Shown in pieces: positions 3,548-25,666 of a DNA stretch of 44,729 nt. The stretch comes from a virus. The translations under genes and the position numbers were made by a program. The DNA lies in the IMG/VR virus record IMGVR_UViG_3300038415_000032, positions 1 to 44,729 of that record. One strand, written 5' to 3'. The notes under the pieces were generated by a model. That model did not search any database and was not told where the DNA came from. It saw nothing but the letters and a program-made list of their open reading frames with translations. The number at the start of each line of letters is the position of its first letter. Within the stretch, counting starts at the first letter, position 1.

Positions 3548-4398
3548 AGGAGTCATGCTGCATCCACCTCGGAAAGTATGGCGACCTGATGGTTCTGATG
3601 CCTGGATGGAAGCACTCCTTCGACAAGACCGGCATCAGGCCGCTGGTGATGGTATCCCAGGAGTTTGCAAATCTGTTTGACGGGGTGTCCTACGTCAGGC
3701 CGTGGGCTGTCCCACTTCACTGGTATGGCGAGTGCGGCAAGGCCCGCATCATCGCCGATAAGGAGTTCGGCGCGGAGAACGTGACGTTCCCGAAGTGGTG
3801 GGACGACCCGACGTTCGTGCCGCCTCCAGTTCCCTCCGAGAAGGTGAACCTTACCATCCGCGACAAGAAGGTCTGCGTCCCGAAGAAATCATGGTTCTCC
3901 TACATGAGCAGCCAGTGGACTAGCGCCGGGTTCGACATTGACCGGCTGTTCGAGCCGGTGGTGTTCGACAGGCGCGACATGGCGCGCGAGCAGAAGCTTG
4001 TCGCCGACACCTTCAAGACGCGGAATCCGAAGATTCTGGTGTGCTGCCAGAAGTCCGGCAGTTCAAGTCCGTTCCCATTTGAGCCGGAAGTCCACGCCCT
4101 GCTGCGGAAATACTCTGACACGCATGAGGTGGTGGACATCTCCACGCTCAAGGCGCACCGCATCTACGACCTGCTGGGGCTATACGACCGGGCGGCGCTG
4201 CTCATCACCTCCGACACGGCGACGCTGCATCTGGCCAGCTCGTCGTTCATTCCCTATATCGCCTTTATTCAAAACGGAGGCGGAGGCTCTCTGCCGCGCG
4301 GCCAGTGCCACCTGACAGTCCGCTATGCTGACGCCGTAAAAAGGATGCCGGAAGTGGATTACGTCGTTGCAAATCTCGTGAACAGGACTAGAGTCTGA
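3538..4398 (+). CDS. GT9-like glycosyltransferase (heptosyltransferase family)
   Basis: The 286-aa product starts MALKESCCIHLGKYGDLMVL, the N-terminal 'lGdl' loop of GT-B enzymes of the ADP-heptose:LPS heptosyltransferase family. Near residues 220-240 it has LLITSDTATLHLASSSFIPY, the donor-binding segment of the same family (usual form D-T/S-G-x-x-H-l-A). It is shorter than bacterial WaaC/WaaF (about 320-350 aa). The start inside the preceding gene (3538 against stop 3547) indicates translational coupling. The donor and acceptor are unknown. Six bases separate it from the portal gene, so it belongs to the head operon. Confidence 0.75.
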   Translation: MALKESCCIHLGKYGDLMVLMPGWKHSFDKTGIRPLVMVSQEFANLFDGVSYVRPWAVPLHWYGECGKARIIADKEFGAENVTFPKWWDDPTFVPPPVPSEKVNLTIRDKKVCVPKKSWFSYMSSQWTSAGFDIDRLFEPVVFDRRDMAREQKLVADTFKTRNPKILVCCQKSGSSSPFPFEPEVHALLRKYSDTHEVVDISTLKAHRIYDLLGLYDRAALLITSDTATLHLASSSFIPYIAFIQNGGGGSLPRGQCHLTVRYADAVKRMPEVDYVVANLVNRTRV

Positions 4399-10397: not shown

Positions 10398-11978
10398 ATG
10401 AGTTGCCCTACTGCGATAATTGCGGCCTGCGATTTTCCTAATTTTCTTGTCGATCAGACCCCGAAGTTTGACGAAATCATCATGGAAGACATCCGGCCCA
10501 CCGATGGCTGGCTGTTGAACGTATCCACCGGCACCACACCGATGGGAACCCCGACTGAAATCACCCAAGACCGTTTCCGCCATGTGTTTCCGAACACCAC
10601 GAAGGCGTGGAGCCGGGTCGTGGCCAATGGCCCCGGCTGCCAGGGCAACCCCTGCGACCCGACCGAACATCAAATCGGCTGGGGTGCTGACCGTCTGACT
10701 TATTACAGCGAACAGCAGACCTGGTCGACGCCCCTCATGTGCTACGACCAAGACATGCACATCACCCAGGCCGAGGCGCACATCTCCCAAATCATCAACG
10801 AAATCCTCCGGCCGGCGACGACCGACATTTCGAGCGCCTTCCTACGCAAACGCGCGCTGGTGTGGGCGAAACAGAAATGGGCTGCCAACAGCTCCATGAC
10901 CCCGTTCACGTTCCAGTGGACTTCCCCGGTCAGCGGCGCGCTCGGCGGGCCGAACGGCGACGAGGAAATCTACTTCTACACCAACATCAGCCCGGGCAAC
11001 GTCTATCTGCTGGCCCCGCAGATGTTGCAGGCCCGGTTCAGCCCGCTCATGCGGCGCGGCTATGCCGGCAAGAACCCGTTCAAGGAGACCACTGCGTTCA
11101 TCGAGCTGGTCACGGACATGGACACCTGCTTCCAGCTGGAAAGGCTGGCGAACAACGGCACCGGCGGAGCGCCCACCATCTCCGGCAACTGGCGCTTCAC
11201 CGAATGGAACGCGGCCAGCGAATACTGGCGCTATGGTTTCAGCGGCCAGATTGGCAACTTCCAGGTGCGCGTGGACGAGCTGGGTCTCCGGTTCAACTAC
11301 GTCAACGACCTTGGCGCGAGCTACACCAACCGCTACCAGTATCAGGTCATCCTGCCCTTCCGCAACGGCATCACCTCCGGCGCTGGCGGCTCTCCCGGCC
11401 TAGGCTCGGATGCCAACCCGGACTTCGATACGGCTCAGTTCGCCATGAGCTACATCTGGCACAAGAAGGCCATGGAGCTGCTCGTCCCGGACGCGGCCCC
11501 GCTCAACTCGGAACTGCCCTTCGGCCATCGCGACTTCGGCGGCAAATGGCAGTTCCAGATGCACGACCTTGGTGCCGATGTCAACGGCAACGCCATCAAG
11601 AACGCGTGGCAGAACAAGGGCCGGTTTGCGTCCTGGTTCAAGTATTACGTCCGCCCGCTCCACACGGAGTTTGCGGAAGCAATCTTCCACAAGCGCCAGC
11701 AGAGCGTCATCCCGAACATCCAGACCGCCAACACGGATGCGACGATGGGCTACCCGGTGCAGGAATACAACAGCGCGTTGCCGAACTGCCCGCTGCCCGG
11801 CAGCTGGCCGAACGGCCGCGTTGCGGTCGCCACCGGCTTCGGGGTTGACCCGGTTCCGTCGGTGAGCGTGGTCATCCAAGGCGTGTCGGTCGCCATCAGC
11901 GACGGCAGCACGGCGAACACGACCCCGGTGGACACGTTCCAGACCACTGCGCTGGACGCGAACACGCTCGACGCGTAA
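10398..11978 (+). CDS. Major capsid protein
   Basis: The 526-aa product starts MSCPTAIIAACDFPNFLVDQ. It has the long, mixed alpha/beta, Trp/Tyr/Asn-rich composition typical of coat proteins, for example GNWRFTEWNAASEYWRYGFS and NAIKNAWQNKGRFASWFKYY. It sits between scaffold and tail genes and is the only gene with both its own promoter and flanking hairpins, as expected for the most highly expressed structural gene. The C-terminal 50 residues (VSVVIQGVSVAISDGSTANT...) are Ser/Thr/Ala-rich and may be a surface extension. HK97-type fold is presumed, not shown. There is no strong ribosome-binding site. Confidence 0.8.
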   Translation: MSCPTAIIAACDFPNFLVDQTPKFDEIIMEDIRPTDGWLLNVSTGTTPMGTPTEITQDRFRHVFPNTTKAWSRVVANGPGCQGNPCDPTEHQIGWGADRLTYYSEQQTWSTPLMCYDQDMHITQAEAHISQIINEILRPATTDISSAFLRKRALVWAKQKWAANSSMTPFTFQWTSPVSGALGGPNGDEEIYFYTNISPGNVYLLAPQMLQARFSPLMRRGYAGKNPFKETTAFIELVTDMDTCFQLERLANNGTGGAPTISGNWRFTEWNAASEYWRYGFSGQIGNFQVRVDELGLRFNYVNDLGASYTNRYQYQVILPFRNGITSGAGGSPGLGSDANPDFDTAQFAMSYIWHKKAMELLVPDAAPLNSELPFGHRDFGGKWQFQMHDLGADVNGNAIKNAWQNKGRFASWFKYYVRPLHTEFAEAIFHKRQQSVIPNIQTANTDATMGYPVQEYNSALPNCPLPGSWPNGRVAVATGFGVDPVPSVSVVIQGVSVAISDGSTANTTPVDTFQTTALDANTLDA

Positions 11979-12314: not shown

Positions 12315-12701
12315 ATGGCCTACGATTTCCAAACCCTGCTGTCCAGTGTGACGGACTACGCGGCCTCTGGAGAAGTCTCCGGCCCGCAGCTCTTAAAGCT
12401 GGCCTTGCTCAAATCCATCGCTGCAACGATGGCTCCTACCATGCCAACCGACTACCAATCTCTCCTGTCCAACACCAATGTCCCCGGCTGGCTGTCCTGC
12501 GCCTACCCCAGCGTTGGTCAGCTCCTTGAACTGTCGCTGCTGTCCATCATCGCCGGAGGTTCCGTCGGTGGCGGCGCGTCCATCACCACCGGCAACTACG
12601 CCGGAGGGACGCCAAACTTCACCCCCGCCAGCGGAACTGGCATCGCCATTGACACCAGCAACAACCGCGTCTGGTGGTATTTCAACGGCGGCTGGAATTG
12701 A
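12315..12701 (+). CDS. Structural protein with a C-terminal beta module, 128 aa
   Basis: The start is placed at ATG 12315, directly after the preceding stop; upstream in-frame sequence is antisense-like. The N-terminal two thirds are helical with hydrophobic repeats (LLKLALLKSIAATMAPTMPT, LLELSLLSIIAGG). The C-terminus, GTPNFTPASGTGIAIDTSNN then RVWWYFNGGWN, matches the module repeated three times at the end of the tail protein (20745-21191): G-x-P...P...G-x-x-x-D...W-x-x-x-G...W. It may be a head or tail accessory protein sharing that binding module. Confidence 0.6.
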   Translation: MAYDFQTLLSSVTDYAASGEVSGPQLLKLALLKSIAATMAPTMPTDYQSLLSNTNVPGWLSCAYPSVGQLLELSLLSIIAGGSVGGGASITTGNYAGGTPNFTPASGTGIAIDTSNNRVWWYFNGGWN

Positions 12702-12705
12702 TTTT

Positions 12706-14031
12706 ATGAAAAACTCACTCATCCTCATCTTCACACTGCTCTGCCTGAAATTATTAGGAGCGGTCTCATACTACGGCACTTTCACCGGCGACGGCGGCGG
12801 CCTGACGAATCTGCCGGCAGCCACCTCCTCCGGCGGCGGGGTGACGAACTTTTACGGCGCGGTTTCTACCAACACCGTCTGGCTTTCGTCGGCTGGATTT
12901 AGCGGAACCTATACTAATCTGGCATCAGCCATCGGCGCAGTCAGCAACTTAAACGGAGCACCTTGCTGGCTGACGTTTGCGCCCGGATTCAATTATCCAA
13001 CACCCGATGGGTTTCAATGCTGGATAACAAATGTCTCGTTTCATGCCTACGGTGCTTCCATCACCGCGTCCGGTATAGCGTCAAATAACTTTGGCAGCGA
13101 AGCGTGGTTTAACATTTATGGAGCATCTGCAATTTTGGGCGGTTCGTGGACTGACAATCCCACCAACGGCCTTTCATCGCAACCGTTCGCGTTTTATGAT
13201 AATCCATCGCAAGGGTTAAGGAGTTCGGTCGAGGTAGCTGACGGAACCTTCGCCGGCTGGACTGGCAACATTGGCGGTTTTTGGTTTGGAACAAATAATT
13301 ATGCCAACATCCATCGCAACACTTTCAATTCTTGGTCGACAACGTGCAACTTTTTTATAGCGGGAGCCGGCGTTACAAACAACCGCCCGAATTACAATAA
13401 CACGCTAAACTTTGATTACAATGTGGCGAACTTTATATTCACCAATAACACATACATGAATAGTATTTTGGTGGCTGGAATCTATCCGGTCGGAGTGGAA
13501 AGCAGCGTGGACTATCTAAACGCAACGCACAATACATTCAACTGTCTTGCGACAATTCCAACCAACTCGCTAGGAAACGCCAATTCAGTTTATTGTTTCT
13601 ACCTGCAAACACCGACTGGTAGTTCGACGGTCAACACCGCCAACCTTGGATTCAATAGCTTCACATCAATAACAAATAATCTTTTTCCGGGGCAATCTTG
13701 GGAAATCTTCGATCAGCTCGGTTCGTCATCAAGGGTTCGCCTGTTTATTGCCGGGCAATATGATGCGACCCTTTGCACAACTAACAGGTTCAGTCCGGTC
13801 AAAATTCAAGGCGGTTTTCAAATCAACCAAGGCACGACAAACGCATATGTCCTGACCTCTTTTACGGCTGTGTTTCAAAATGCCTTTTCAGATACCAATT
13901 ACACCGCGACAGAGACGGGCAACGGCTTTGCAATCGCGTCCAGCTATGTCTCGTCAAAGACCACTACGAACTGCGTGTTTAACATGACATCGTCAACTGG
14001 TTTAATTGATTGGATTGCGATTCACCCATGA
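12706..14031 (+). CDS. Appendage/fibre-like protein with an N-terminal signal peptide, 441 aa
   Basis: Start ATG 12706, five bases after the preceding stop. The N-terminus MKNSLILIFTLLCLKLLGAV is a Sec-type signal (basic n-region, hydrophobic core, small residues), followed by TFTGDGGGLTNLPAATSSGG. The GDG-x-GLTNL motif is common in phage fibres and bacterial surface proteins. The rest is Asn/Thr/Ser-rich with many short beta-type segments (right-handed beta-helix or spike-like). A signal peptide on a virion protein is unusual; see also 21191 and 22744. Its stop overlaps the next ATG. AT content rises here compared with the capsid genes, suggesting a separate origin. Confidence 0.65.
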   Translation: MKNSLILIFTLLCLKLLGAVSYYGTFTGDGGGLTNLPAATSSGGGVTNFYGAVSTNTVWLSSAGFSGTYTNLASAIGAVSNLNGAPCWLTFAPGFNYPTPDGFQCWITNVSFHAYGASITASGIASNNFGSEAWFNIYGASAILGGSWTDNPTNGLSSQPFAFYDNPSQGLRSSVEVADGTFAGWTGNIGGFWFGTNNYANIHRNTFNSWSTTCNFFIAGAGVTNNRPNYNNTLNFDYNVANFIFTNNTYMNSILVAGIYPVGVESSVDYLNATHNTFNCLATIPTNSLGNANSVYCFYLQTPTGSSTVNTANLGFNSFTSITNNLFPGQSWEIFDQLGSSSRVRLFIAGQYDATLCTTNRFSPVKIQGGFQINQGTTNAYVLTSFTAVFQNAFSDTNYTATETGNGFAIASSYVSSKTTTNCVFNMTSSTGLIDWIAIHP

Positions 14032-14169
14032 AACCGCTCCGCCCCGCCATCCTGATTCTGCTCTGCGTGGCGCTGGCACTGCTGCCCGGCCAACCCAAAC
14101 AACTGGATTGAGCAGGGCGGAAACCCTTATATCTGGCTTTGGCAGGACTCTGACATCTACGGAAAATGA
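14028..14169 (+). pseudogene. Small secreted-type protein with a one-base frameshift (46 aa if repaired)
   Basis: ATG 14028 overlaps the previous stop. The first frame gives a signal-like segment MKPLRPAILILLCVALALLP and stops after 27 codons. Removing one C of the CCC run near 14086-14089 continues the protein as ANPNNWIEQGGNPYIWLWQD and then SDIYGK, ending at TGA 14167-14169. The span of 142 bases is 141 plus one, as expected for one inserted base. It looks like a short exported or periplasmic peptide in the lysis region. Either a sequencing error or a recent mutation explains it. Confidence 0.5.
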
Positions 14170-14225
14170 AACACCCGACACCAAACCATTGCCTGCTGAC
14201 GAAACGGCGGCATAAGAAGAAATGA
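14166..14225 (+). CDS. 19-aa basic micro-ORF
   Basis: ATG 14166 overlaps the stop of the preceding frame by four bases (ATGA). The peptide MKHPTPNHCLLTKRRHKKK is very basic. It could be a translated coupling peptide between two lysis-region genes, or chance. Support is the overlap only. Confidence 0.2.
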   Translation: MKHPTPNHCLLTKRRHKKK

Positions 14226-14228
14226 CTT

Positions 14229-14634
14229 ATGAGCGAAATCCATCCAGAAAACAATGAGCGGCTGACAAAGTTTGAAAGACCGGATTGAATCTATGATGCT
14301 CGCCACTGAAACATCCGGCACCTCCATTGGGCAATGGGGGACGTTCATCTCCATCGTGCTGTTTGCCGTCGGCTCTCTGTATGCCAAGGTCAAGGACTCA
14401 AAGAAAGATTCCCTGGCGCAGCAGATTCAGAAAGAACAGAGGGACTGCCTGCGACAGATTGAGGTGGGTCAGTCCACTCAGAACGGAAAGCTAGCCAAGG
14501 TCACAGAGCTAAACGAAAGCCATTACACGGCGGTCATGGAAATCAGCCGGGCTCGGCATGAGGAGATGCTGCGGGCGTTGAACAACATCTGCAAGCATTC
14601 CCAGAGCGACGACTACCCCAAAAAACAAGTTTGA
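14229..14634 (+). pseudogene. Spanin-like inner-membrane protein with a one-base frameshift (134 aa if repaired)
   Basis: ATG 14229 gives MSEIHPENNERLTKFERPD and a stop. Dropping one T of the TTT run at 14271-14273 joins it in frame to LKDRIESMMLATETSGTSIG..., which runs to TGA 14632-14634. The span is 406 bases (405 plus one). The joined protein has a single N-terminal membrane helix (GTFISIVLFAVGSLYAKVKD). A charged coiled-coil domain follows (QQIQKEQRDCLRQIEVGQST and beyond), the topology of an i-spanin or Rz-like protein. It precedes the holin/lipoprotein gene. Without repair, translation could start only from TTG 14272. Confidence 0.6.
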
Positions 14635-14658
14635 CGATCCGCTGTTTGCTGCTATGTT
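14631..14658 (+). promoter_or_regulatory. Candidate promoter before the holin/lipoprotein gene
   Basis: TTGACG (14631-14636), 16 bases, TATGTT (14653-14658), overlapping the stop of the spanin-like gene. The start codon ATG 14686 lies 27 bases downstream of the -10. This would allow separate timing of lysis gene expression. Confidence 0.5.
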
Positions 14659-14685
14659 TCCACCGTCAGTCAACCAAACAAAATT

Positions 14686-15354
14686 ATGAACCAAGACCAA
14701 GCCGTATCTATAGTCACCAAACTCATAATCGCCGCCTGCGCCGGCATCGCAGCCAAGTTGGGCTTCAGCTCTGACCTTGCCGGCCTATCCGCCACCATTG
14801 CGCCAGCCATCGTTGCGCTCGCCGTGTTTGCCTATTCGCACTGGTATAACGGCCAGTCGCTTGGCCAGCCTCCGATTGTCTCGCCGCTCCCGGCTGGCTG
14901 GTCTGTGATCCAGTCCGGCGGGAGCGTGCCGCTTGGCCAGCCTCCGATTGTCTCGCCGCTCCCGAAGGTGCGCCGCCTGGTCACCCTGTTAGCGCTGGGC
15001 GCTATTGCGGTGTCGTTGACCGGCTGCACTTCGGTCTATACCAACGGCTGCGTGACGGTCGTACAGACGCGCGGGTTTGGCCTGCGTGTCACCGCCACCG
15101 GCAGCAGCACGTCCACTCCGGAGATTGACTTTGGGGCGTTCAGCTCCTACATGTCCGTCTATCCGACCAGCACCAACGCGCTAAGCTGCGCCCCGTTCTT
15201 CACCACGGCCACCGCGAACACGACCATCAATCCGTTTGATGTCGGCATCAATGAGACCATAGGCGCCGGCAACGTGACCGCCAACATCGGAACTAACGGC
15301 ACGAGCGGCGCCAGCACCATCATCCCTAAGGTGGCCAAGCCGCAGGTGAACTGA
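14686..15354 (+). CDS. Holin-like and lipoprotein (o-spanin-like) fusion, 222 aa
   Basis: Residues about 7-52 form two hydrophobic segments (TKLIIAACAGIAAKLGFSSD and IAPAIVALAVFAYSHWYN), like a small holin. A Pro-rich linker follows with a repeated LGQPPIVSPLP. After a basic stretch (KVRRLV) there is a second export signal ending in a lipobox, TLLALGAIAVSLTGC, and then a Ser/Thr/Asn-rich domain resembling an outer-membrane spanin or surface lipoprotein. One polypeptide thus carries two usually separate lysis functions. An internal start at the second signal is possible. It lies next to the spanin-like gene and the papain-like peptidase; the next start overlaps by coupling. Confidence 0.6.
   Translation: MNQDQAVSIVTKLIIAACAGIAAKLGFSSDLAGLSATIAPAIVALAVFAYSHWYNGQSLGQPPIVSPLPAGWSVIQSGGSVPLGQPPIVSPLPKVRRLVTLLALGAIAVSLTGCTSVYTNGCVTVVQTRGFGLRVTATGSSTSTPEIDFGAFSSYMSVYPTSTNALSCAPFFTTATANTTINPFDVGINETIGAGNVTANIGTNGTSGASTIIPKVAKPQVN
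14859..14963 (+). repeat. Two in-frame 33-bp direct repeats, period 72 bp
   Basis: Bases 14859-14891 and 14931-14963 are identical (starting GCTTGGCCAGCCTCCGATTG). The period of 72 bp is 24 codons, so the reading frame is kept and the peptide LGQPPIVSPLP appears twice in the linker between the holin-like and lipoprotein-like parts. It probably arose by tandem duplication. Confidence 0.9.
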
Positions 15355-15355
15355 C

Positions 15356-16117
15356 ATGAACAAATCCACCATCGGCCGCAAGTATGGATGGCGCGCGGAA
15401 CGCCCTGACCATCGCGACTTCAAGTTCATTCCCAAGCTTGACCGTGATGTTCAGCCGCTGCCGGTGGTGGTTGACCTACGGCCGTCCATGCCTCCAGTGT
15501 ATGACCAGGGCTCGCTGGGCTCCTGCACCGCGAACGCCATCGCCGCTGCCTATGACTATGAGCGTGGCAAACAAGGACTCGGGTTCATCACTCCGTCCCG
15601 CCTGTTCGTCTACGCCAACGAGCGCCTCAACGAATGCGTCCAGCTCACGGATGACTCTGGTGCTCAAATCCGCGACGGCGTGGCATCGGTGGCTAAGCAG
15701 GGCGTCTGCCCGGAATCCGAGTGGCCGTATGACATCAGCCAGTTCAGCGTGGTTCCACCACAGTCATGCTACGACGACGCACTGAAAGACCAAGTGCTCC
15801 AGTATCACGCCGTTGACCTTTACGACATCAAGGCGGCACTGGCGCAGGCTCAGCCCGTCATAATCGGTATCAGCGTGTTCGATTCGTTTGAAAACTCGCA
15901 GGTCAGCCAGACCGGCGTCGTCCCAATGCCGGGGCCGAACGAGTCCTGCCTCGGTGGCCATGCCGTCCTGATTGTCGGCTACGACTGCAACAAGGGTGTG
16001 TATATCGTGCGGAATTCATGGGGCAGTGGATGGGGACAGTCGGGCTACTTCACCCTCCCGTTCGCATATCTGGAGCAGAATGGCTCCGACTTCTGGACTT
16101 TGGTTCAGGTGGAATAA
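15356..16117 (+). CDS. Papain-like (C1 family) cysteine peptidase
   Basis: The 253-aa protein shows the C1 triad: Gln51 and Cys57 in VYDQGSLGSCTANAIAAAYD, His202 in GGHAVLIVGYD, and Asn220 in VRNSWGSGWGQSGYF. N-terminal residues (YGWRAERPDHRDFKF) match those of related bacterial and phage C1A-like proteins. No signal peptide is seen. It follows the holin/lipoprotein gene by one base, the place where a phage normally has its endolysin, and I recognise no muramidase, amidase or transglycosylase elsewhere. It may cleave peptidoglycan peptide bonds or process virion or host proteins. The 3' end overlaps the opposing terminase gene by 13 bases. Confidence 0.85.
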   Translation: MNKSTIGRKYGWRAERPDHRDFKFIPKLDRDVQPLPVVVDLRPSMPPVYDQGSLGSCTANAIAAAYDYERGKQGLGFITPSRLFVYANERLNECVQLTDDSGAQIRDGVASVAKQGVCPESEWPYDISQFSVVPPQSCYDDALKDQVLQYHAVDLYDIKAALAQAQPVIIGISVFDSFENSQVSQTGVVPMPGPNESCLGGHAVLIVGYDCNKGVYIVRNSWGSGWGQSGYFTLPFAYLEQNGSDFWTLVQVE

Positions 16118-17964
16118 TTCAGCGCGCCTTCTTTCCACGACTCGCGCGCCTTCGTTTTAAGCGTCTGCTTCCATGAGCCGCCCTGTTTCCGGGGTGTCTC
16201 TTTTAGTCTCAGGCTGGCGATGGTGAACCCGCGCCGGCGAGCGCCCTCGATGCCGATGGCCAGCGAGTCGAACAAGTCAGGCGAGCGGCCGGTCTTCTTC
16301 TTCATCTCCGACTTGGGCTCCACCTCAATCTTGTTGCCGGACACGGTAGTCCACTCACGCTGGCAGCCTTCCTGCATGACGGATTCAGTCAGTCCACGAA
16401 GCTGCTGCGCCTCGATGACAAGCCGAACGGAATACCACAGCTCGGTGATGAACTTGGAGTAGTGTTCGTCGCACCGCTTCGGCCGCACCGTCCCGTTCTT
16501 TTCGGTGATGGTCTCGGTCGAGGAGACTGGCCGTGCTGACGGCGAGCCGCCGCAATCAATCGAGTTGACCTGTGGCGACCAGAGCCGGCCAAACGCCGTG
16601 ACCAGCGTCGTCCTCATGCCCGAGTCGAAGAAGAAGCTCTCCGGCGGGATGTTGGCGGTGTCGCACTGGGTCTTGACGAAGGCGACAATCTGCTCCTCTG
16701 GCGGCACGTCAATCTTCACATTGACCGGGCAGAGGATGATGCGCGAAATGGCGATAATCTGGCGGTGCTTGGACTGGAAAGGATTCTGCTGGGCGATGTT
16801 CGGAATCAGGTCGTCCGAGCCCTCCGTCCACGCCTGCTGCCCAATCTCCAGCTCGCCGTAGATACAGCGGTCTCCGCCCACGCCAGAGTAGGCCGCGTCA
16901 AGGAAGGAAATCTTCGTACGCTGCTCGTTCAACCACTCCGGGTCGTCCAAAGCCTGATTCTTCAGGCAGAGCTGGCGGGTGATGACGCGGCGGCTGCCCT
17001 GTCCCTTGGGCATCATGCCTTGGTTCATCATCGTGAACTGAAGCGAGTCCTTGCCATACCGCTCGATGTCGCGGTCAATCGCTGCCTGAGTGATGAGCGG
17101 GATGCCCAGCTTGCCATCAAGGTTCGGTGAGTCGGTTCCCACGAGCTGCACACAGACCCCGCCGAACCGGGTAGGCCACGTCTTTGTCTCTGGAGACTGG
17201 TCAACACCGCCCTCCCATCCTCCGATGGCCTCAGCGGGCTCGCAGAGAACACCTAGGGCGTCCGTGGTCTCCTTCGGGTTGCCAAGCCCCATGACCTTGA
17301 AGTCCTCGTTCTTGTCCATGTTTGAGACGGAGAACACGAACATGGATGGCAGGAGCTGGAGCTCGTCCGCCGACAGCCTGACCCGCTTGTTCTTGATTCC
17401 GATGAACGAGCCGAGGCCTTGGTAGTTGCCACCGACAAGACAAGGGACGCCAATGATGCCGTTACGGAAGTCGCGGCCATCAACCGAGTCGGACTTGCTG
17501 TCGGTGACAATGCGCTGTTTGCCCTCAATCAGGTTGCCCGGAAGGCCAGGGAAGCGGCGTCGGGCAATCTTGTGGTATTTCTTGATTTCACCCCAGATGC
17601 GGTCTTCGAGGCGCTCGCGGGTGGTGGAGCAAATCAGGACGGTGGTGCATTCCGGCCAGACGTAGTAGTCGGCCAGCATGGTCACGCCGGCGGTGTTCGT
17701 CTTGCCGCTGGAGGCCGGCCCCATGACGCCGATGGCGCGATGGTCGAGGTAGCTCTGGAGCTGGAGCTCGTTCCAGCGGTGCCACGTAAGCTCGTCCGGC
17801 CAGAGAACGGACATCAGCTTCTTCATGTGCCAGAACATCCCGTTTCCGCGCGGCTGGCCATCCTTGCCAATCCACTGTCCACCCTTGCGGAGCATATATT
17901 TCTCCACCTCGAAGGCGCTGGTTCCCGCCCTGAAGGCGATTCCGTATCGGTTGAGTATGGCCAT
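16105..17964 (-). CDS. terL: Terminase large subunit (packaging ATPase/nuclease)
   Basis: The start is set at ATG 17964; TTG 17976 is in frame but poor. The 619-aa protein has a Walker A variant in VMGPASSGKTNTAG (residues about 80-93) and a Walker B-like VRLSADELQLLP. In the C-terminal nuclease domain it has SFLDAAYSGVGGDRCIYG (first acidic motif), FFFDSGMRTTLV, and a final SPDLFDSLAIGIEGARRRG (RNase H-like metal site). It cuts concatemeric DNA and pumps it through the portal. The gene is reversed relative to all other late genes. Its 5' end is 14 bp from the divergent tail gene and its 3' end overlaps the peptidase gene. No small subunit was recognised. Confidence 0.9.
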   Translation of the reverse strand: MAILNRYGIAFRAGTSAFEVEKYMLRKGGQWIGKDGQPRGNGMFWHMKKLMSVLWPDELTWHRWNELQLQSYLDHRAIGVMGPASSGKTNTAGVTMLADYYVWPECTTVLICSTTRERLEDRIWGEIKKYHKIARRRFPGLPGNLIEGKQRIVTDSKSDSVDGRDFRNGIIGVPCLVGGNYQGLGSFIGIKNKRVRLSADELQLLPSMFVFSVSNMDKNEDFKVMGLGNPKETTDALGVLCEPAEAIGGWEGGVDQSPETKTWPTRFGGVCVQLVGTDSPNLDGKLGIPLITQAAIDRDIERYGKDSLQFTMMNQGMMPKGQGSRRVITRQLCLKNQALDDPEWLNEQRTKISFLDAAYSGVGGDRCIYGELEIGQQAWTEGSDDLIPNIAQQNPFQSKHRQIIAISRIILCPVNVKIDVPPEEQIVAFVKTQCDTANIPPESFFFDSGMRTTLVTAFGRLWSPQVNSIDCGGSPSARPVSSTETITEKNGTVRPKRCDEHYSKFITELWYSVRLVIEAQQLRGLTESVMQEGCQREWTTVSGNKIEVEPKSEMKKKTGRSPDLFDSLAIGIEGARRRGFTIASLRLKETPRKQGGSWKQTLKTKARESWKEGALNYST

Positions 17965-17978
17965 ACCTGTTTGCAAGG

Positions 17979-20900
17979 ATGATAACAGTTGCAGGCCAAT
18001 CCTTCAAGGTGTATTACTGGGATGTGAGTTTTCTCAAAGATTTCATCGGCGGATTCCTTGGTGGAGTTGACTCCGGAGTTAATCCGCATCTTCTGCCGCG
18101 CAACAAGCTCGCATGGATGGTGAACGGAACCGTGCGTGGCGGCTACTGCTCGCCCCGGCCAAAGTTTCCCGCATACAACTTCACTGATGGCGGGGCGCTG
18201 GTCATCGGAGGATCCAACACCTGCGCCAACTTCGTCCAGAACGGAGTCTTCCAGGGTGCAACCGAGAAGTCGTATCACCCGAACAAAAGTTCAATCCTGC
18301 CCGGCCCGACGTTCTTCGCCCTGATAAGTGGACGGCTGTTCGGGTTCACGCCGGACTACATCGTCAGCAGCGTGGGCGTTTATTCCCCGTCCCCCGGCAG
18401 CATCGCGCTCAAGGAGTTCACACCGATTATTTCAGCTGGTGTTCCCGACCTGAATTCAATCACGGCAACGCAGGCATGGTTGGGTCAGGCGGAGAACTAC
18501 CTGATTATCCAGGATGGCTCGACTCCGAACCCGCTGGTGTTCGATGGCAACAATTCCTTCCGGTCGCTCTCGTTGCAGACGCAGATTGCGGTTTTTAACA
18601 CTGCTTCAACGAATGTCGCCCCGTCGGTCGGCTCGACTCTGACGGTTTCCAGCGCGAATTTTTCAACCGCACCAACCACCACAACGCCACAGCCGCTGTC
18701 TGTTTATTCAGGAGCAACAGGCGCGTTCATCGGCCAGATGTCCATTGGTTTTCCTCCTGCTGGTTTTTATGACGCCCTCTTGAATACGACAGGCGCTCAC
18801 ACATTCACAATAGGAGACGCTGTTTATCTTCAAAGCTACGCCACCATATACAGCAATCAAACATTGGCAATCAATGCGTCCTATCCGTTTGCCTACGCTA
18901 ACAATCTGACCGTTGGGACTTCGGACGCCAACAACGCGAATACCACCGCCGGCTTTGTTGCCGGCTCCCTGACGGCACTGGTGACGGTTCAGCAATACAA
19001 ATCCCAAAGTGGAGCACCTTTTGGAAGTCCGATGGTTCCAGGTGCTACAACGCAGGTCACTTCATCTCAAATCACGCCCTCGATGATTTCTTCCGGCAGC
19101 TTCAACATCATCCTGCCGTCAGACCCGTATGGCTCCAATTCAAAAATCACAGCCATCACGCTTCAATACCAGACTTCGGTTCAGTCCGTCAATGCGACCT
19201 ATACGCCGATTGGGGTGATTGCATCCACGACAAGCTCCGGCTCTCCTTACGGGGTCACTTTCACAAACAGCCAGCCATATCCCTCCACGTCTCCGTCAGG
19301 AGCAACCGTCTTCGTCGGCTCAAACTCCTCGTCGCCCGGCTCGAATTTCCAATGCACTATTTCAAGTGCTCCCGCTCCCGGAAGCGTTGCCAGCTACATT
19401 CTCACAAACCAGTCGGTAGTCTCTGGAACAAGCCTTTCTAATTGTGTCCTGCAAACTCTAGTCGGCATCCCCTGCGGCAAGCAGTGGGCATATTGCCAGG
19501 GTCGCATCTGGACTACGCTTCCAAGCGGGACGCAGTTTGTGGCCGGCGACATCGTGGGCGGTTCTAGCGGCACGGCGGCGAACAACTTCCTCGACGCAAT
19601 CCTATACACGATGCAGAACACGCTGCTATCGAATGGCGGCACATTTTCACTGCCTGGCAACTACGGCTCAATCCGGGCGATGGTCGTCGCACCGACAATG
19701 AACGTCGCGCTGGGTCAGGGGCCGTTGCAGGTGATGACCGCGCAGTGCATTTTCAGCGTGAATGCTCCGGCGGACATCACCACATGGGCGAGCCTGACGA
19801 CTCCGATTGTCACCGTCTCGCTGATTGGAGCGGGCGCACTCGGCCAGTGGTCGTCCATCCCGGTCAATGGGGACATCCTGTTCCGCGCTCCAGACGGCAT
19901 CCGGTCAATGACCATCGCCTCGCTGGACTTCTACAAGTGGAACAACACGCCATGCAGCCATGAAGTTGGCCGCGCCATCGATGGCGACCAGGAAAACCTG
20001 CTGGACTTCTGCTCTGCTGTGCAGTTTGACAACCGGATTATCTTCGGCTGCTCTCCAGTCTCCGGCGCGAACGGGACGACGTTTCAAAACGCCGTGGTGA
20101 TAAACCTAGATTCCGTCAGCAACCTGCAATCAAAGTCGCCCTCGGTCTGGGATGGGGTGTGGCAGTCCGTCAACGCCCTGCAACTGATGACGGGAGTGTT
20201 CCACAACACGGCGCGGTGCTTTATGTTCACGTCCAACGGAACATCCATCGGACTCTCGGAGATTCTGTCCACCACCGACGGTCAGGACATCGCTGGAACC
20301 GATGACACGCTTTTCCAGCTTGAATCTCCAGTCCTGTTCGACCCGAATGAAATCAAGGGAGAATATGACCTGCTGCGACTTGAGGATGGTGAGGTCTATT
20401 TCCAGAACCTGCTGGGCTTGGTCACGTTCACGGTGGAGTTCAGGCCGGACTACGACCCGAACTGGCATCTGTGGTATTCATGGACGGTGGACAACACCGG
20501 CGGCAACAAGCCTTATGCCACCCGCATGGGTCTTGGATGTCCCATTGGCTCCGGCGGCTCGACTTCTGGAAATCAGAACCGGGATGGCTACGACTTTCAG
20601 GTGAGAATCACCATTTCAACCGGCTCCGCTCAGTTCATGGGTGCGGCGTTCAAGGCGTCAAAAGTTCCAAAAAGCGAGTTTGCCATGCCGATTGTGAACG
20701 TCCCTGTGCCTCCGGCTCCGCCTGCCCCTCCACTGCTGAAGCAGATGTTCGCCGGGTTTGGAGCTCCGACGAACCAGAATCCGGGAGCGCAGGCAGGCAT
20801 TTATTTCGATGCGGCCAACCAGGAGTTTTATCTGTGGCTCGGAACACAATGGGACGGCGGCATCACGCCGACAGGAGCTACGGTGATTGCGGCCGGCTGC

Positions 20901-21194
20901 CAGGCGTTCGCCGGCTCAGGTGCGCCAACGCCAGCCACTCCAACGCCAGCGAACAACGCGGGTTCATATTTCGACTACACGAACTCGGCGGTTTATTTCT
21001 GGAATCCTCTTGGCTACTGGGGTGATGATGTCACCGCCAATGGCGGCGGCGCTGTGGCATCGCTGGGGCAGGATTATTTCAACGGCAACGGAGCTCCGAC
21101 CACCCAGAAACCGGCGGACGGTGCAGGGATGTATTACGATTTGACCACGCTGACCCTTTACAACTGGAACACAACGAACAATACTTGGATATGA
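17979..21194 (+). CDS. Large tail protein (nozzle/hub-like) with C-terminal repeat modules, 1071 aa
   Basis: ATG 17979 is preceded by AAGG. The N-terminal 850 residues are beta-rich, with segments such as AWLGQAENYLIIQDGSTPNP and CGKQWAYCQGRIWTTLPSGT. A further segment is GDILFRAPDGIRSMTIASLD. These are similar in style to tubular tail protein B / tail needle-hub proteins of podoviruses. After a Pro linker (VPVPPAPPAPPLL) there are three related modules of about 45 residues. The protein probably forms the tail tube or nozzle with the modules exposed at the tip. It is divergent from terL with only 14 bases between start codons. The exact homologue in T7 or P22 cannot be fixed from sequence alone. 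Confidence 0.7.
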   Translation: MITVAGQSFKVYYWDVSFLKDFIGGFLGGVDSGVNPHLLPRNKLAWMVNGTVRGGYCSPRPKFPAYNFTDGGALVIGGSNTCANFVQNGVFQGATEKSYHPNKSSILPGPTFFALISGRLFGFTPDYIVSSVGVYSPSPGSIALKEFTPIISAGVPDLNSITATQAWLGQAENYLIIQDGSTPNPLVFDGNNSFRSLSLQTQIAVFNTASTNVAPSVGSTLTVSSANFSTAPTTTTPQPLSVYSGATGAFIGQMSIGFPPAGFYDALLNTTGAHTFTIGDAVYLQSYATIYSNQTLAINASYPFAYANNLTVGTSDANNANTTAGFVAGSLTALVTVQQYKSQSGAPFGSPMVPGATTQVTSSQITPSMISSGSFNIILPSDPYGSNSKITAITLQYQTSVQSVNATYTPIGVIASTTSSGSPYGVTFTNSQPYPSTSPSGATVFVGSNSSSPGSNFQCTISSAPAPGSVASYILTNQSVVSGTSLSNCVLQTLVGIPCGKQWAYCQGRIWTTLPSGTQFVAGDIVGGSSGTAANNFLDAILYTMQNTLLSNGGTFSLPGNYGSIRAMVVAPTMNVALGQGPLQVMTAQCIFSVNAPADITTWASLTTPIVTVSLIGAGALGQWSSIPVNGDILFRAPDGIRSMTIASLDFYKWNNTPCSHEVGRAIDGDQENLLDFCSAVQFDNRIIFGCSPVSGANGTTFQNAVVINLDSVSNLQSKSPSVWDGVWQSVNALQLMTGVFHNTARCFMFTSNGTSIGLSEILSTTDGQDIAGTDDTLFQLESPVLFDPNEIKGEYDLLRLEDGEVYFQNLLGLVTFTVEFRPDYDPNWHLWYSWTVDNTGGNKPYATRMGLGCPIGSGGSTSGNQNRDGYDFQVRITISTGSAQFMGAAFKASKVPKSEFAMPIVNVPVPPAPPAPPLLKQMFAGFGAPTNQNPGAQAGIYFDAANQEFYLWLGTQWDGGITPTGATVIAAGCQAFAGSGAPTPATPTPANNAGSYFDYTNSAVYFWNPLGYWGDDVTANGGGAVASLGQDYFNGNGAPTTQKPADGAGMYYDLTTLTLYNWNTTNNTWI
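20745..21191 (+). repeat. Three degenerate protein modules G-x-G-A-P-T ... W at the tail-protein C-terminus
   Basis: Three consecutive segments start FAGFGAPTNQNPG, FAGSGAPTPATPT and FNGNGAPTTQKPA. Each continues with G-x-Y-F/Y-D, then an aromatic-x-W strand and a final W. The period is about 45-60 codons. A fourth related copy ends the 12315-12701 protein. The pattern resembles small beta modules of fibres and could mediate attachment. Confidence 0.65.
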
Positions 21195-22744
21195 GAAACT
21201 TCTTCATCGCGCTGGCAACGGCGTTAACGCTGGCTGCGAGCGCCACTCAGTTTTACTACAACTCGTTCACGACGAACACCGACGCCAATGCGCTCGCTAT
21301 GGCAACCAACATCGCCAACGCGGCTATTCAGAATCAGCTTTCCGTTTCGATTAACTCGCAGGTCATTGAGGCTGCGGGCGGGCTGGACACTAACAATTAC
21401 ACGCTTTTTACGGATACGAATGGTGCGGCTCTGTGGTGGTATCAGCAGGCGACGAACTTTGCCGGGACAAACCTACCGGCAAGCCTTGTCACCGTGCCGC
21501 AGCTTGCGTCAGCGACCAATTCACTGTGGACAAATTCAACAGCCTATCTTAACGGCGTGGCAACCACGGTGGCGAACACGGTATATTCTAACAATCCGTC
21601 CGGCTACCTGACACCATCGGCCACCAATGGACTGACCTATTTTGGAACCAACGTGGTGACATCTGTCGTCAGCGCGGGCGGTGTCACAATTACGCAGGTG
21701 AATACTTTGGCAGGAATTGCAGTAACCCTGACGGCCAGCGGAACCAACAACGTCAACGTTACCAACTTGAACGCGACCAGCCTTGCCTCCTACGGTGCAT
21801 TTACCACTCTGGCTTCTTCATGGACGAACTACGTTGCCCCGTATCTGGACTACACAAACGCCTCCACCTATACGAATCCACTGCTTTCAGCAGTCTCGGC
21901 GGCGGCTACCTATCAGACGACTGGAGCGTATCTAACAGCGCAATCGAATCTGGATTACAGCAACGTGACCAATCCTCCAGCAATCCCGTCCACCAACGGG
22001 CTCGTGACGGCGGCAATCACCAACGGGCTTGCAACGACGAACTGGGTGCAGTCGCAGGGTTACACCAACGCTGGAATCCTTGCTTCCTACGCCACCACCA
22101 ACTACGTCAACAATGCCATGCTGACTGTGGTTTCTCCGTCGCAGTTGAACAACGCCAGCAATGCACTTCAAACTGAAATCTCAGCGAACTCTGACAGCAT
22201 TGCCGCCGCATGGCCTACAAGCCAGCCGTTCATCGGAAGCATTCTCGTCGTGTCCAACATGACGGTCTCTCTGGCGACGACCAACGGCGTCATCACCGCA
22301 ACACTTGGAAGCTACGGTGGCGCAGTGGCAGGGTTCCAGCCGTCCAGCCAGAACCTAACCAACTGGTCGTCAATCCCCACGAACACCATCCTGCTGACAA
22401 CCAACGTAATCACTTCGATTACCGCCGGGACAACGGCAAGTGTTGCGCTGTCGAACAGCGTATCTGGTGGAATCATCGCCACGATTGGAGCCACCTACAC
22501 CGGCCAGTCTCCGGCAGCGTGGCAGTCAGTCACGTTCACCACTCCGGCGGTTTCTGGCAACTCATATTCTGGCACATGGTCATCGGCGCTGCTCGCCACG
22601 CCTACTTCCTTGAAGGTGTATTACGCTGGGGCGTCCTACACGGTTTCCACGCTGACTGCCACCACAACTGGATTCACATACGCCGACTCTGGAAACTCCA
22701 TCGGCACGAACAAAACAGTAACCGTGATTGGATTCTGCTACTGA
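21191..22744 (+). CDS. Tail fibre-like protein with signal peptide, paralogue 1 (517 aa)
   Basis: ATG 21191 overlaps the preceding stop (ATGA). The N-terminus MRNFFIALATALTLAASATQ is a good Sec signal with an A-S-A cleavage site, followed by FYYNSFTTNTDANALA. The body is Thr/Asn/Ser/Ala-rich with repeated motifs (VANTVYSNNPSGYLT, NLDYSNVTNPPAIPSTNGLV, QNLTNWSSIPTNTILLTTNV), a fibrous beta architecture. The next gene encodes a diverged copy of much of this sequence. It is probably a receptor-binding fibre; the signal peptide is unexpected for a cytoplasmically assembled virion. Confidence 0.7.
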   Translation: MRNFFIALATALTLAASATQFYYNSFTTNTDANALAMATNIANAAIQNQLSVSINSQVIEAAGGLDTNNYTLFTDTNGAALWWYQQATNFAGTNLPASLVTVPQLASATNSLWTNSTAYLNGVATTVANTVYSNNPSGYLTPSATNGLTYFGTNVVTSVVSAGGVTITQVNTLAGIAVTLTASGTNNVNVTNLNATSLASYGAFTTLASSWTNYVAPYLDYTNASTYTNPLLSAVSAAATYQTTGAYLTAQSNLDYSNVTNPPAIPSTNGLVTAAITNGLATTNWVQSQGYTNAGILASYATTNYVNNAMLTVVSPSQLNNASNALQTEISANSDSIAAAWPTSQPFIGSILVVSNMTVSLATTNGVITATLGSYGGAVAGFQPSSQNLTNWSSIPTNTILLTTNVITSITAGTTASVALSNSVSGGIIATIGATYTGQSPAAWQSVTFTTPAVSGNSYSGTWSSALLATPTSLKVYYAGASYTVSTLTATTTGFTYADSGNSIGTNKTVTVIGFCY

Positions 22745-24669
22745 TGAAAAACACATTTACATTCCTGCTGATGCTGGCCCTGAACGGATGCACACTCTGC
22801 CCGGCGCAGACCCCTATTGGAATCAAGCAAAACTCGTTCACCACAAACGGCGATGCGTATTGCGTTAATCTGGTTTCCACCATCGCGTCTGTCGTGGCGC
22901 TGGGAGACCCATTTTATACTGTCACCGGCTCTGGAGAGCCTCAATGTGATGGGAATTATTATCAGACTATTCTTCCTGTGTATGGTGGGGTTTTATGTTA
23001 TACGAACGGTAATGGAGCTAATTTCTTTCTGATAGGCCTTCCTTATCCATTTTTCAATGGATGGGGGTTTCTTGCGAACCTGAACGAATTTATTACGACT
23101 GGGAATATCTATCCCTATTATGTTAATACCAACTACGTCAACGCAAGCGGACTTTCAGGCCAGTGGGTCAGCCCTGATTCAGCTGACATATATCAGGCAT
23201 ATCCCGGAGCTCCGCCTTATCCGTTCTCTGTGCTTGGATTCACCGGCCCACAGCGGTTCGTCACCGCAGCAACACTGGCCGCAGCTGGAGGTCTGACCGT
23301 CAGCAACTACGCGAACTACGTTGACGTGGCTGGAGCGGCGAGCATGGCCTATCCTCCAATCTCAAACCCCAATCTGGCGACGCAGGTGCAGTTGTCTGGG
23401 GCGTCAAACGGATTTATCTCGTCGCTTCAATCCTACGCTCCACCGACAGCTACGGCGATTGCAAACGGTGTCTATTCAAATAATCCGTCGCACTACATTT
23501 CATACGTAGGAACCAACGCCACAAAATTTGGAAGCAATGTCGTCACCTCCATGTCCGCAGGAACCGGAGTCACTCTAGCGTCCAACCTGACTAGCGCGGG
23601 CTGGGCATACACGGTGAACCTTGCTGGCTCAAACGTGGTGTATATCACAAACATCAATGCCGTGAATCTGGCGGCCTGGGGAGCGTTCACGACCAACAAA
23701 TCTTCATGGCTAGGCACACTGGCGGCAAAGGGTGACTGGACAAACGCGGCAGTCTATTTCAGTGGAATCATTTCAACGTCCACAGCGGCAGCGACACTTC
23801 TTCCAAAGGGCGTGTATCTGACTGGAACGAGCAACCTGAATTATTCCAAGTTCACCAATCCTCCAGTCATTCCGAGCGTGGCTGGATTTACCACGGCGGC
23901 GGTGACAAACCCGCTGGCAAGCATGGCGTGGGTGTCGAACCAGAATTACCTTCAATCTGTCAATCTTTCATTCTACTCAATGACTGGTGACGTGGCATCC
24001 GCCCTATCCGGATACCCGACAAATCTCCAATTAACCACGAACGCATTGCAGCTTCAGGTGAACACCAACGCCACTAACATCCTTCTGTGCTGGGGAACGA
24101 ACCATGCGTTTGTTGGGGCCATCAATGTCAACTCCAACATGACGGCCAGCTACTCCACGAACGGAAGCGGAGTCATCACTGCCACGCTTGGCTCAACTAC
24201 GAATCTTTACACCTCTGGATACCAGCCTGCCACGAAGAATCTCACCAACTGGTCTGCGGTTGCAACCAACTCAATCCTGCTCACGACGAATCTGGTGACG
24301 AAGATTGTGCAGGGGAACAATGTCCTAATCACGTTCATCACGAACAAAACTGGCATCAATGCGACGGTCAACGCCTACTATGCCTACAATGCGCCAGTTC
24401 AGTTTGAAGGCGCCAGCGTTACATTTGTGAATAATTCCCCGTCAGGATATAAGGTTTCTGGCGCATCGTATTCCCATCCACTTCCTGCTCCAGGAACATC
24501 ATACAAGGTGTATAGTGCTTCCAGCCCATACACAGACCTCACATCCAGTTTTAACTCGTTTTTTGGTTCCTCAATCACAAACACGGCAAACGGAATAAAC
24601 GCAGGTTTCGTCGCTGGCACCCCGTCTCCATACGTCCAGAACATCATCATCGTAGGCGTCTGCCAATGA
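22744..24669 (+). CDS. Tail fibre-like protein with lipoprotein-like signal, paralogue 2 (641 aa)
   Basis: ATG 22744 overlaps the previous stop (TGATG). The open frame extends much further upstream, but that part is a shadow of paralogue 1. The N-terminus MKNTFTFLLMLALNGCTLCP resembles a lipoprotein signal with a slightly atypical lipobox (L-N-G-C). The central region repeats paralogue 1 motifs: GVYSNNPSHYIS, NLNYSKFTNPPVIPSVAGFT, KNLTNWSAVATNSILLTTNL. It ends VQNIIIVGVCQ, like VIGFCY in paralogue 1. Tandem duplication of a fibre gene followed by divergence is the simplest history. A 17-codon mini-ORF (24666-24719) overlaps its end. Confidence 0.7.
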   Translation: MKNTFTFLLMLALNGCTLCPAQTPIGIKQNSFTTNGDAYCVNLVSTIASVVALGDPFYTVTGSGEPQCDGNYYQTILPVYGGVLCYTNGNGANFFLIGLPYPFFNGWGFLANLNEFITTGNIYPYYVNTNYVNASGLSGQWVSPDSADIYQAYPGAPPYPFSVLGFTGPQRFVTAATLAAAGGLTVSNYANYVDVAGAASMAYPPISNPNLATQVQLSGASNGFISSLQSYAPPTATAIANGVYSNNPSHYISYVGTNATKFGSNVVTSMSAGTGVTLASNLTSAGWAYTVNLAGSNVVYITNINAVNLAAWGAFTTNKSSWLGTLAAKGDWTNAAVYFSGIISTSTAAATLLPKGVYLTGTSNLNYSKFTNPPVIPSVAGFTTAAVTNPLASMAWVSNQNYLQSVNLSFYSMTGDVASALSGYPTNLQLTTNALQLQVNTNATNILLCWGTNHAFVGAINVNSNMTASYSTNGSGVITATLGSTTNLYTSGYQPATKNLTNWSAVATNSILLTTNLVTKIVQGNNVLITFITNKTGINATVNAYYAYNAPVQFEGASVTFVNNSPSGYKVSGASYSHPLPAPGTSYKVYSASSPYTDLTSSFNSFFGSSITNTANGINAGFVAGTPSPYVQNIIIVGVCQ

Positions 24670-24709: not shown

Positions 24710-25666
24710 ATGTTATTGACGCTCGCACAAGTGAAGGCCGGACCGGTTGGCCGCTCCTGCGGCATCGCCACCACGTCGCCGGATTTCACCAGCATCGTCA
24801 ACGACGCCACGCGCCAGCTGATGACTCGCGGCAACTGGTGGTCGTCCGTGCAGCCGATGGCGCTAACAATCGGCCAGAACGGGACGATAATCTGCCCAAG
24901 GGAGGTGGCGACGGTGCTGGCCATGAACCTGACCTTGTTTGGTGGCCGCAGGATTCAGTCGAGGATGTCGAACCTCTGGTTTGAATACCTGCCGTGGACT
25001 GACGGAATCATAAGCTGGGCGGCATCTTGCAGGGGCAGTTTCCACGAGGTCGCAGCGTCCGACGGATACGTCGTGGTGACGAGCCAGTTCAAGTCGCCGA
25101 ACTACATCAGGGTCACATCCTCGTCGCCGCTCGACGCCGGCAAGAACATCTCCTTCTTCGGACTTGACCAGAACGGCGCACCGGCGTCTTGCACCATCCA
25201 GATGAGTTCCACGTTCGCATCCTCGTATCCGCAGCAGTTCTCTGTGGTCAGCCGCGTGGCCAAGGACATGACCTCCGGCTACGTCACCTGCCAGCAGGAT
25301 GACAACAACGGCAACCTGCTTCCGCTTTCCATCTACGAGCCGTCAGAGCAGTCCCCTGAATACGTCCTGATGAAGCTGATGATGCACGGAATGGTTTCGC
25401 TGGTGGCCAACGCGCTGGTGAAGCTGTCATTCATCCCGGTGGTCAACGATACCGACCGGGTGCTCATTGAGAATCAGGACGCGCTGCGGGACATGGTGCT
25501 GTCCATCCGAAAAAAGGAGTCCGGTGATTTGGCCTCTGCCGCCGGCCTTGAGAAGTCCGCCATGCTGGAGCTAAATCACCAGATGAGAAACCGATTCCCT
25601 GATGAGCAGTTTCAGGCGAGAATCCTTCCGTTTGGAAAACGTCCACAAAGCCTTTACACCTACTAA
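24710..25666 (+). CDS. Head-tail connector / tubular tail protein A-like
   Basis: The 318-aa product has DFTSIVNDATRQLMTRGNWW near its N-terminus, the 'N-x-A-x-R-x-L ... G-x-W' pattern seen in T7 gp11-like adaptor proteins. The C-terminal half is helical (EYVLMKLMMHGMVSLVANAL and the following Lys/Glu-rich region). Such proteins form a dodecameric ring between portal and nozzle. It fits next to the fibre and internal virion genes. The start ATG 24710 is preceded by a short mini-ORF (24666-24719) rather than a clear ribosome site. Confidence 0.65.
   Translation: MLLTLAQVKAGPVGRSCGIATTSPDFTSIVNDATRQLMTRGNWWSSVQPMALTIGQNGTIICPREVATVLAMNLTLFGGRRIQSRMSNLWFEYLPWTDGIISWAASCRGSFHEVAASDGYVVVTSQFKSPNYIRVTSSSPLDAGKNISFFGLDQNGAPASCTIQMSSTFASSYPQQFSVVSRVAKDMTSGYVTCQQDDNNGNLLPLSIYEPSEQSPEYVLMKLMMHGMVSLVANALVKLSFIPVVNDTDRVLIENQDALRDMVLSIRKKESGDLASAAGLEKSAMLELNHQMRNRFPDEQFQARILPFGKRPQSLYTY

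Follow-up and report, generated by a model that had tools for sequence, protein, structure and literature searches.

In the window analysed here, a stretch of 44,729 bases that is the entire IMG/VR virus record IMGVR_UViG_3300038415_000032, three genes starting at positions 12706, 21191 and 22744 code for appendage-type proteins that begin with Sec signal peptides. By the usual teaching, tail appendages are assembled in the cytoplasm. Our preferred reading, to which we give a probability of roughly 0.45, is that these three proteins are exported by Sec and cleaved, and that the N-terminus so created would serve for docking, most likely to virions at the time of lysis. It builds on the signal peptides, on conserved modules, on shared bodies and tips and on gene positions, from which we infer export, cleavage, folding in the periplasm and docking on the virion. 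The three genes and their predicted signal peptides are:

12706 to 14031, plus strand: gp12706, an appendage-type protein of 441 amino acids with a tip domain at residues 373-441 (about 13822-14028).
12706 to 12768, plus strand: signal peptide of gp12706, 21 amino acids, MKNSLILIFTLLCLKLLGAVS (rule test, shuffles, start 4 nucleotides past the gp12315 stop).
21191 to 22744, plus strand: gp21191, an appendage-type protein of 517 amino acids, 43% identical to gp22744 over about 420 amino acids.
21191 to 21244, plus strand: signal peptide of gp21191, 18 amino acids (rule test; ATGA overlap with the gp17979 stop).
22744 to 24669, plus strand: gp22744, an appendage-type protein of 641 amino acids and paralogue of gp21191.
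22744 to 22806, plus strand: signal peptide of gp22744, 21 amino acids by its signal peptidase I (SPase I) site (rule test; TGATG overlap).

The sequence-only reading that first pointed to these signals had allowed that the true starts might map downstream of them. Against this, the starts sit at tight gene junctions: the ATG of gp12706 lies 4 nucleotides past the stop codon of gp12315 (12699-12701), that of gp21191 overlaps the gp17979 stop (ATGA) and that of gp22744 overlaps the gp21191 stop (TGATG). A codon-usage gene caller written for the analysis chose the same three starts. Longer open reading frames (ORFs) at 12478-14031 and 22210-24669 were rejected, since they only read through genes that overlap in a different frame. 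Further along the same frame, the first methionine is residue 251 in gp12706, residue 37 in gp21191, and residues 10 and then 201 in gp22744, where Met10 falls within the hydrophobic core. A downstream start is unlikely because most of the protein would be lost or, in gp21191, a conserved N-terminal motif would be deleted.

Signals were called with a rule set of our own (basic n-region, hydrophobic core, residues at -3 and -1; threshold score 10) rather than with SignalP. The test passed OmpA, MalE, Lpp, PhoA and Bla, rejected LacZ and EF-Tu, and gave a positive call for 44 of the 201 genes of one genome from the class of the Pedosphaera metagenome-assembled genome (MAG) described below, a rate judged reasonable. 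Among 268 ATGs of the window with at least 150 open codons, these three were the only ones to score at least 10, and shuffled versions of their first 40 residues reached the observed score with p = 0.0005 (gp12706), 0.003 (gp21191) and 0.003 (gp22744). The predicted cuts separate MKNSLILIFTLLCLKLLGAVS from YYGTF in gp12706, MRNFFIALATALTLAASA from TQFYY in gp21191 and MKNTFTFLLMLALNGCTLCPA from QTPIG in gp22744. With a basic n-region, a hydrophobic core, small residues at -3 and -1 and a credible start in all three, the junctions, the rule test and the shuffles bear out the Sec signal peptides. Export by the twin-arginine (Tat) route was rejected, as no twin-arginine motif was found in the n-regions of the three.

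A lipobox-like L-N-G-C had also been noted in gp22744, which would place its cleavage at Cys16. This stretch has Asn at -2 and fails a PROSITE PS51257-like pattern, on which ground a bacterial lipoprotein was rejected. Alignment with relatives (for instance L149, GAFG/QPILRNSFTTN, with a slash for the cut) favours an SPase I cut before Gln22 (CPA/QTPIGIKQNSFTTN). The lipobox is thus doubtful, the SPase I site fits better, and the identification of gp22744 as a lipoprotein is probably wrong.

The window belongs to a little-known lineage of uncultivated, terminase-bearing tailed phages, which was followed through two anchor genes:

16105 to 17964, minus strand: terminase large subunit (phrog_2, E 2.3e-4), the lineage finder, with 72 viral relatives.
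10398 to 11978, plus strand: candidate major capsid protein by size, conservation (57-71% identity) and position, the second lineage anchor.

The terminase gave the only phage-family match among the scanned head, tail and packaging genes; the names capsid, nozzle and adaptor are used here from position and conservation. The capsid candidate was found in at least 80 loci, overlapping the set of 72 terminase relatives. Searched against genomes, the terminase profile found no relative and the capsid profile found one, on a contig of a Pedosphaera MAG (Verrucomicrobiota). Because of this one capsid relative, the host group is probably Verrucomicrobiota, bacteria of soil and water, an assignment that comes from the binning of a single MAG contig. 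The numerous loci are related, non-independent contigs, and the counts given below describe sequences rather than evolutionary events. Contigs of relatives often measure 51-58 kb, and the window may be incomplete.

In the related loci, the same calling method found signals on 74 of 184 proteins of at least 140 amino acids that are rich in Asn, Thr, Ser and Gly, and on 2 of 531 core-gene homologues (L040 and L062, both partial or edge-affected calls). Shuffling of the N-termini in the former set gave a mean of 6 and a maximum of 13 calls against the 74 observed. A signal-bearing protein of at least 140 amino acids was present downstream of the capsid gene in 55 of the 80 capsid-centred loci, and a strict count that demanded both a signal and appendage-like composition found one in 24 of 52 distinct cassettes with capsid and terminase. 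Sites of the type small-x-small followed by Gln occurred at residues 13-34 in 40 of 127 phage signal proteins, compared with 11 of 127 at a control position. No signals were detected on the tail or virion proteins tested from T7, crAss001, P2559S and phi14:2, most of those from phi14:2 having an annotation based on tandem mass spectrometry; the proteins of crAss001 and phi14:2 that did score were Rz-type or unnamed membrane proteins. Searches of the open-access literature found no paper that describes tail fibres with Sec signals.

The signal-bearing proteins have very different bodies, yet many of them share a short module directly past the cut. These modules were termed alpha (QxSYFNxGFLRQPSAAADRAYLGI), beta (ANPPYEAFLGTNGIxIRSNPPxGKIxVDG), gamma (NTYDTNxEA), delta (PPPYVHNYWTTQAQAQVNSP), epsilon (QNSFTTN), which is carried by gp21191 and gp22744, and zeta (YVGNFTGNGAGLTNIP), which is carried by gp12706. 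In the window they lie as follows:

12769 to 12816, plus strand: mature N-terminal module of gp12706, YYGTFTGDGGGLTNLP, matching the protein at 12235-13347 of L129 just past its cleavage site, with unrelated bodies.
21254 to 21277, plus strand: epsilon module of gp21191, YYNSFTTN, a motif found past the cleavage site in 8 other proteins.
22828 to 22848, plus strand: epsilon module of gp22744, QNSFTTN, by motif comparison.

The test of the epsilon motif was post hoc. A pair test not tied to a chosen motif found, among pairs without detectable body similarity, 10 that scored at least 50 at the cleavage site, while the three offsets tried within the proteins gave 0, 2 and 0. Leader identity in the four module families with more divergence was 0.16-0.47 compared to 0.65-0.92 for the first 24 mature residues (alpha, 0.16 versus 0.71; beta, 0.47 versus 0.76), and the pattern of n-region, hydrophobic core and c-region was kept. 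Because the leaders diverge while keeping this pattern and the residues past the cut are conserved, they behave as signal peptides do, unlike fixed assembly domains. Of the two possibilities raised earlier, export before lysis or a leader with a role in assembly, these data favour the former: the predicted export of the three proteins is strongly supported, and export with cleavage would be the simplest reading of the signals. Since the conserved peptide would be exposed only by cleavage, docking to a partner is suggested. When IMG/VR was scanned, 9 loci had the alpha module and 17 the beta module, with signals called in 8 and 16 of these, respectively; in the remaining two (L161, L207) a leader was obvious by eye. 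Two apparent signal-less copies (L080 11515 and L076 12777) were dismissed as start errors, since each gains a signal when read from a start a little upstream or from an internal ATG.

Besides the post-cleavage module, what goes beyond the sequence-only reading is that some of the same bodies and tips are found, at the same locus, on signal-less proteins behind an N-terminal CFxC domain. The genes concerned in the window are:

12315 to 12701, plus strand: gp12315, a stand-alone CFxC-domain protein with two domain copies (profile matches at residues 1-39 and 43-114), candidate base or partner.
17979 to 21194, plus strand: gp17979, a conserved large structural-type protein upstream of both the 21191 and 22744 genes, with homologues in 46 loci; tail nozzle by position only.
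24710 to 25666, plus strand: gp24710, a conserved gene that closes the 21191/22744 slot, with homologues in 25 loci.

The CFxC family consists of small proteins adjoining signal genes, gp12315 included, with the consensus MACDPQTLLNAAKCYACLPPG. None of its 135 members carried a signal, 39 of the 135 were fused to larger bodies, and the members tested had no match in Pfam or PHROGs. The body of a signal-bearing L095 protein (residues 206-465) matched six signal-less proteins, most of them with a CFxC domain (E 1e-44 to 1e-16), and the L116 tip was 46-54% identical to the tips of very large signal-less fibre-like proteins. In L036 the signal is followed by KTSEYPNIAAPDEL, which by eye resembles the start of signal-less fibre-like proteins in L016, L023, L071 and L127. 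As signal-less relatives show the same bodies behind the CFxC domain, both kinds of protein are suggested to serve the same end. Of the cassettes that have a signal-bearing appendage, 22 of 24 contained a stand-alone CFxC gene, versus 17 of 28 of those without one (p = 0.012), and its place beside the exported protein suggests a pairing. CFxC genes also occur in tandem, interleaved with signal-bearing genes, in L006 (17526-18516 and 13752-14531, minus strand) and L019 (15436-15816 and 17293-17670, minus strand).

The slot between gp17979 and gp24710 holds gp21191 and gp22744 in the window, whereas most relatives have there one structural-type gene without a signal; nine such slot proteins, searched against the window, found no relative. 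Comparison of gp17979 with T7 gp12 and crAss001 gp44 gave no match, and neither profile comparison with T7 and crAss001 proteins nor a PDB sequence search lent support to nozzle or adaptor roles of gp17979 and gp24710. By eye, a repeat of the type GxGAPTxxPxxxxGxYxDxxxxxxYxWxxxxW is common to the ends of gp12315 and gp17979; it may be a shared attachment element. In L162, L163 and L164 an operon runs from terminase (minus strand) through a protein of 149 amino acids with the alpha module and collagen-like sequence and a protein of 469 amino acids to a LamG-like protein of 243 amino acids, with leaders on all these proteins; in L163 and L164 it continues directly into the gp17979 homologue.

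The designation of the three proteins as virion appendage-type, made in the sequence-only reading, was upheld in part. The domain content of relatives (beta-helix, LamG, alpha-galactosidase C-terminal domain and collagen-like stretches) fits glycan-facing appendages, and the three proteins have the architecture of tail fibres or tailspikes, namely a conserved N-terminal module, a variable body and an exchangeable tip. The three themselves had no match in Pfam or PHROGs, nor did gp21191 and gp12706, the two tested, in PDB sequences, so that no match to a known tail fibre or tailspike family was found in these searches. No match to gp21191 was found in phage records and no direct homologue of gp22744 or gp21191 in IMG/VR, where gp12706 had a single match, in the tip domain. 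The gp12706 tip is 73% identical to the C-terminus of a signal-bearing protein (L150 4352-6550), and gp21191 has a short match to a large signal-less fibre-like protein (L137 14251).

On the preferred reading, the appendage genes would be translated from the structural operons and their products sent to the periplasm, and cleavage would free the short N-terminal module for docking on a partner. This partner would most likely be on the virion, either gp17979 or one of the CFxC proteins, for instance gp12315, acting as a base. The variable body and exchangeable tip would bind or cut surface glycans, and virions would meet the exported appendages once holins and lysis open the inner membrane. Tailless particles of P22 accept the tailspike in vitro, so such late addition is physically plausible. 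The fuller proposal, that Sec-made recognition appendages wait in the periplasm and join finished capsids during lysis through the cleavage-made N-terminus, while sister phages carry the same bodies unexported behind a CFxC domain, is put forward tentatively.

Several observations weigh against this. Tailed phages assemble their tail proteins in the cytoplasm, the very site from which a Sec signal removes a protein. A signal-bearing appendage is missing from part of the complete cassettes, 24 of 52 having one. The skew between fused and stand-alone CFxC genes is moderate, the fused form not being clearly depleted where signals occur. The AlphaFold2 models of gp12706 and gp17979 failed, with a mean predicted local distance difference test score of 36.5 and 35.6, respectively. 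The virion location of these appendages is predicted, and domains are no proof of it, since tailspike folds are also found in exported bacterial enzymes such as WceF of Pantoea stewartii, a trimeric beta-helix enzyme (PMC7949094).

It is possible, and a real competitor, that the three proteins are exported effectors that act in the periplasm or at the surface, before or at lysis, by masking receptors, by decorating the cell, or by cutting glycans or capsule for the spread of progeny, without ever becoming part of the virion. Such a location is the direct prediction from a signal peptide, and the alpha-galactosidase C-terminal, LamG and beta-helix domains of relatives occur in secreted glycan enzymes. 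WceF is a case of a tailspike fold in an enzyme that a bacterium exports, and it has domain types similar to those of the relatives; it differs in its Tat signal and in belonging to a bacterial exopolysaccharide operon. The nearest precedent is Llp of T5, described as a small outer-membrane lipoprotein for superinfection exclusion; acting from the periplasm, it blocks the receptor that T5 itself uses (PMC9586334). Like Llp, the proteins described here are phage-encoded and predicted to pass the inner membrane. Unlike Llp, they have 441-641 amino acids (up to 1665 in relatives) and appendage-type bodies, gp22744 lacks a PS51257-type lipobox, gp12706 and gp21191 have SPase I-type sites, and only 9 of 68 large appendages matched a PROSITE-like lipobox pattern, so most of them would not be lipoprotein exclusion factors. 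Effectors would also hardly account for the place of the genes in structural operons, for their overlaps of 1-4 bp with structural-type genes or for the way in which they replace, or are exchanged with, signal-less appendages bearing the same bodies, and a free enzyme needs no conserved non-lipid docking peptide at its mature N-terminus. Because of these operons, the bodies and tips in common with signal-less appendages and the docking-like mature N-terminus, export followed by virion attachment appears at least as likely as action on the infected cell.

We regard it as unlikely that the proteins are captured host surface adhesins or enzymes, with the signal a leftover or part of a moron function that has nothing to do with the infection cycle. 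Their bodies are very variable and without phage matches, and their composition and GLTN-type repeats presumably resemble those of verrucomicrobial surface proteins; however, the signals persist, with a conserved pattern, in highly diverged phages, and the alpha module was found in phage cassettes only, with none in 286 genomes from the class of the Pedosphaera MAG in a scan run without a positive control. Least probable of all would be an uncleaved leader, whose hydrophobic N-terminus serves as an anchor or trimerisation element in the virion or contacts the membrane as the DNA enters. The sole confident element of the gp12706 model is a leader helix (residues 2-20), which suits this explanation and fits a cleaved leader equally well, whereas the basic n-region, the small residues at -3 and -1, the excess of Gln sites described above and a poorly conserved leader next to strongly conserved residues right past the cut all speak for cleavage.

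Returning to export with docking on the virion, the proteins resemble T7 gp17 and crAss001 gp22-gp26 in having an attachment module at the N-terminus, a variable body, an exchangeable tip at the C-terminus and a location in structural operons, and their relatives share beta-helix, LamG and collagen-like content with known fibres and tailspikes. They differ in the signal peptide, which is absent from T7 gp17, crAss001 gp22-gp26, the tested phi14:2 structural proteins and the P2559S tail proteins. The virion proteins pIII and pVIII of filamentous phages also have cleaved signal peptides, but those virions assemble in the membrane, while the lineage described here is of terminase-bearing tailed phages. 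If the whole lineage exports its appendages, virions would be completed outside the cytoplasm, and disulfide bonding and periplasmic chaperones would be open to fibre proteins; alternatively, exported fibre-like proteins would serve phages as weapons or shields on the infected cell. The post-cleavage docking peptide provides a sequence handle for such proteins in viral metagenomes, where they are now labelled 'hypothetical' or host. The siphophage P8625 has a verrucomicrobial host, as this lineage probably does, and differs in the absence of signal peptides, none having been reported by its authors in any of its 52 proteins (PMC4642752).

Other genes of the window were also noted. A plus-strand protein of 2504 amino acids without family matches (27638-35152) follows the late genes and is probably an internal or ejected virion protein. 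The ORF at 14686-15354 (plus strand) has a holin-like start (weak Phage_holin_10 match) and continues into another hydrophobic stretch, which contains a lipobox (LTGC). Between the hydrophobic parts the sequence LGQPPIVSPLP occurs twice, and an in-frame GTG would start a separate lipoprotein. The ORF may represent a lysis gene that is fused or nested. At 15356-16117 (plus strand), a papain-family cysteine protease without a signal peptide (PF00112, E 1.4e-18; phrog_16701) adjoins the lysis-type genes. Upstream of the structural block, two glycosyltransferase-like genes (2810-4398, plus strand) gave a weak Anp1 match, and the second, heptosyltransferase-like by eye, has relatives in L036 and L037. 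Finally, a gene at 43539-44339 (minus strand) resembles phosphoadenosine phosphosulfate reductase (phrog_424, E 8.4e-30).

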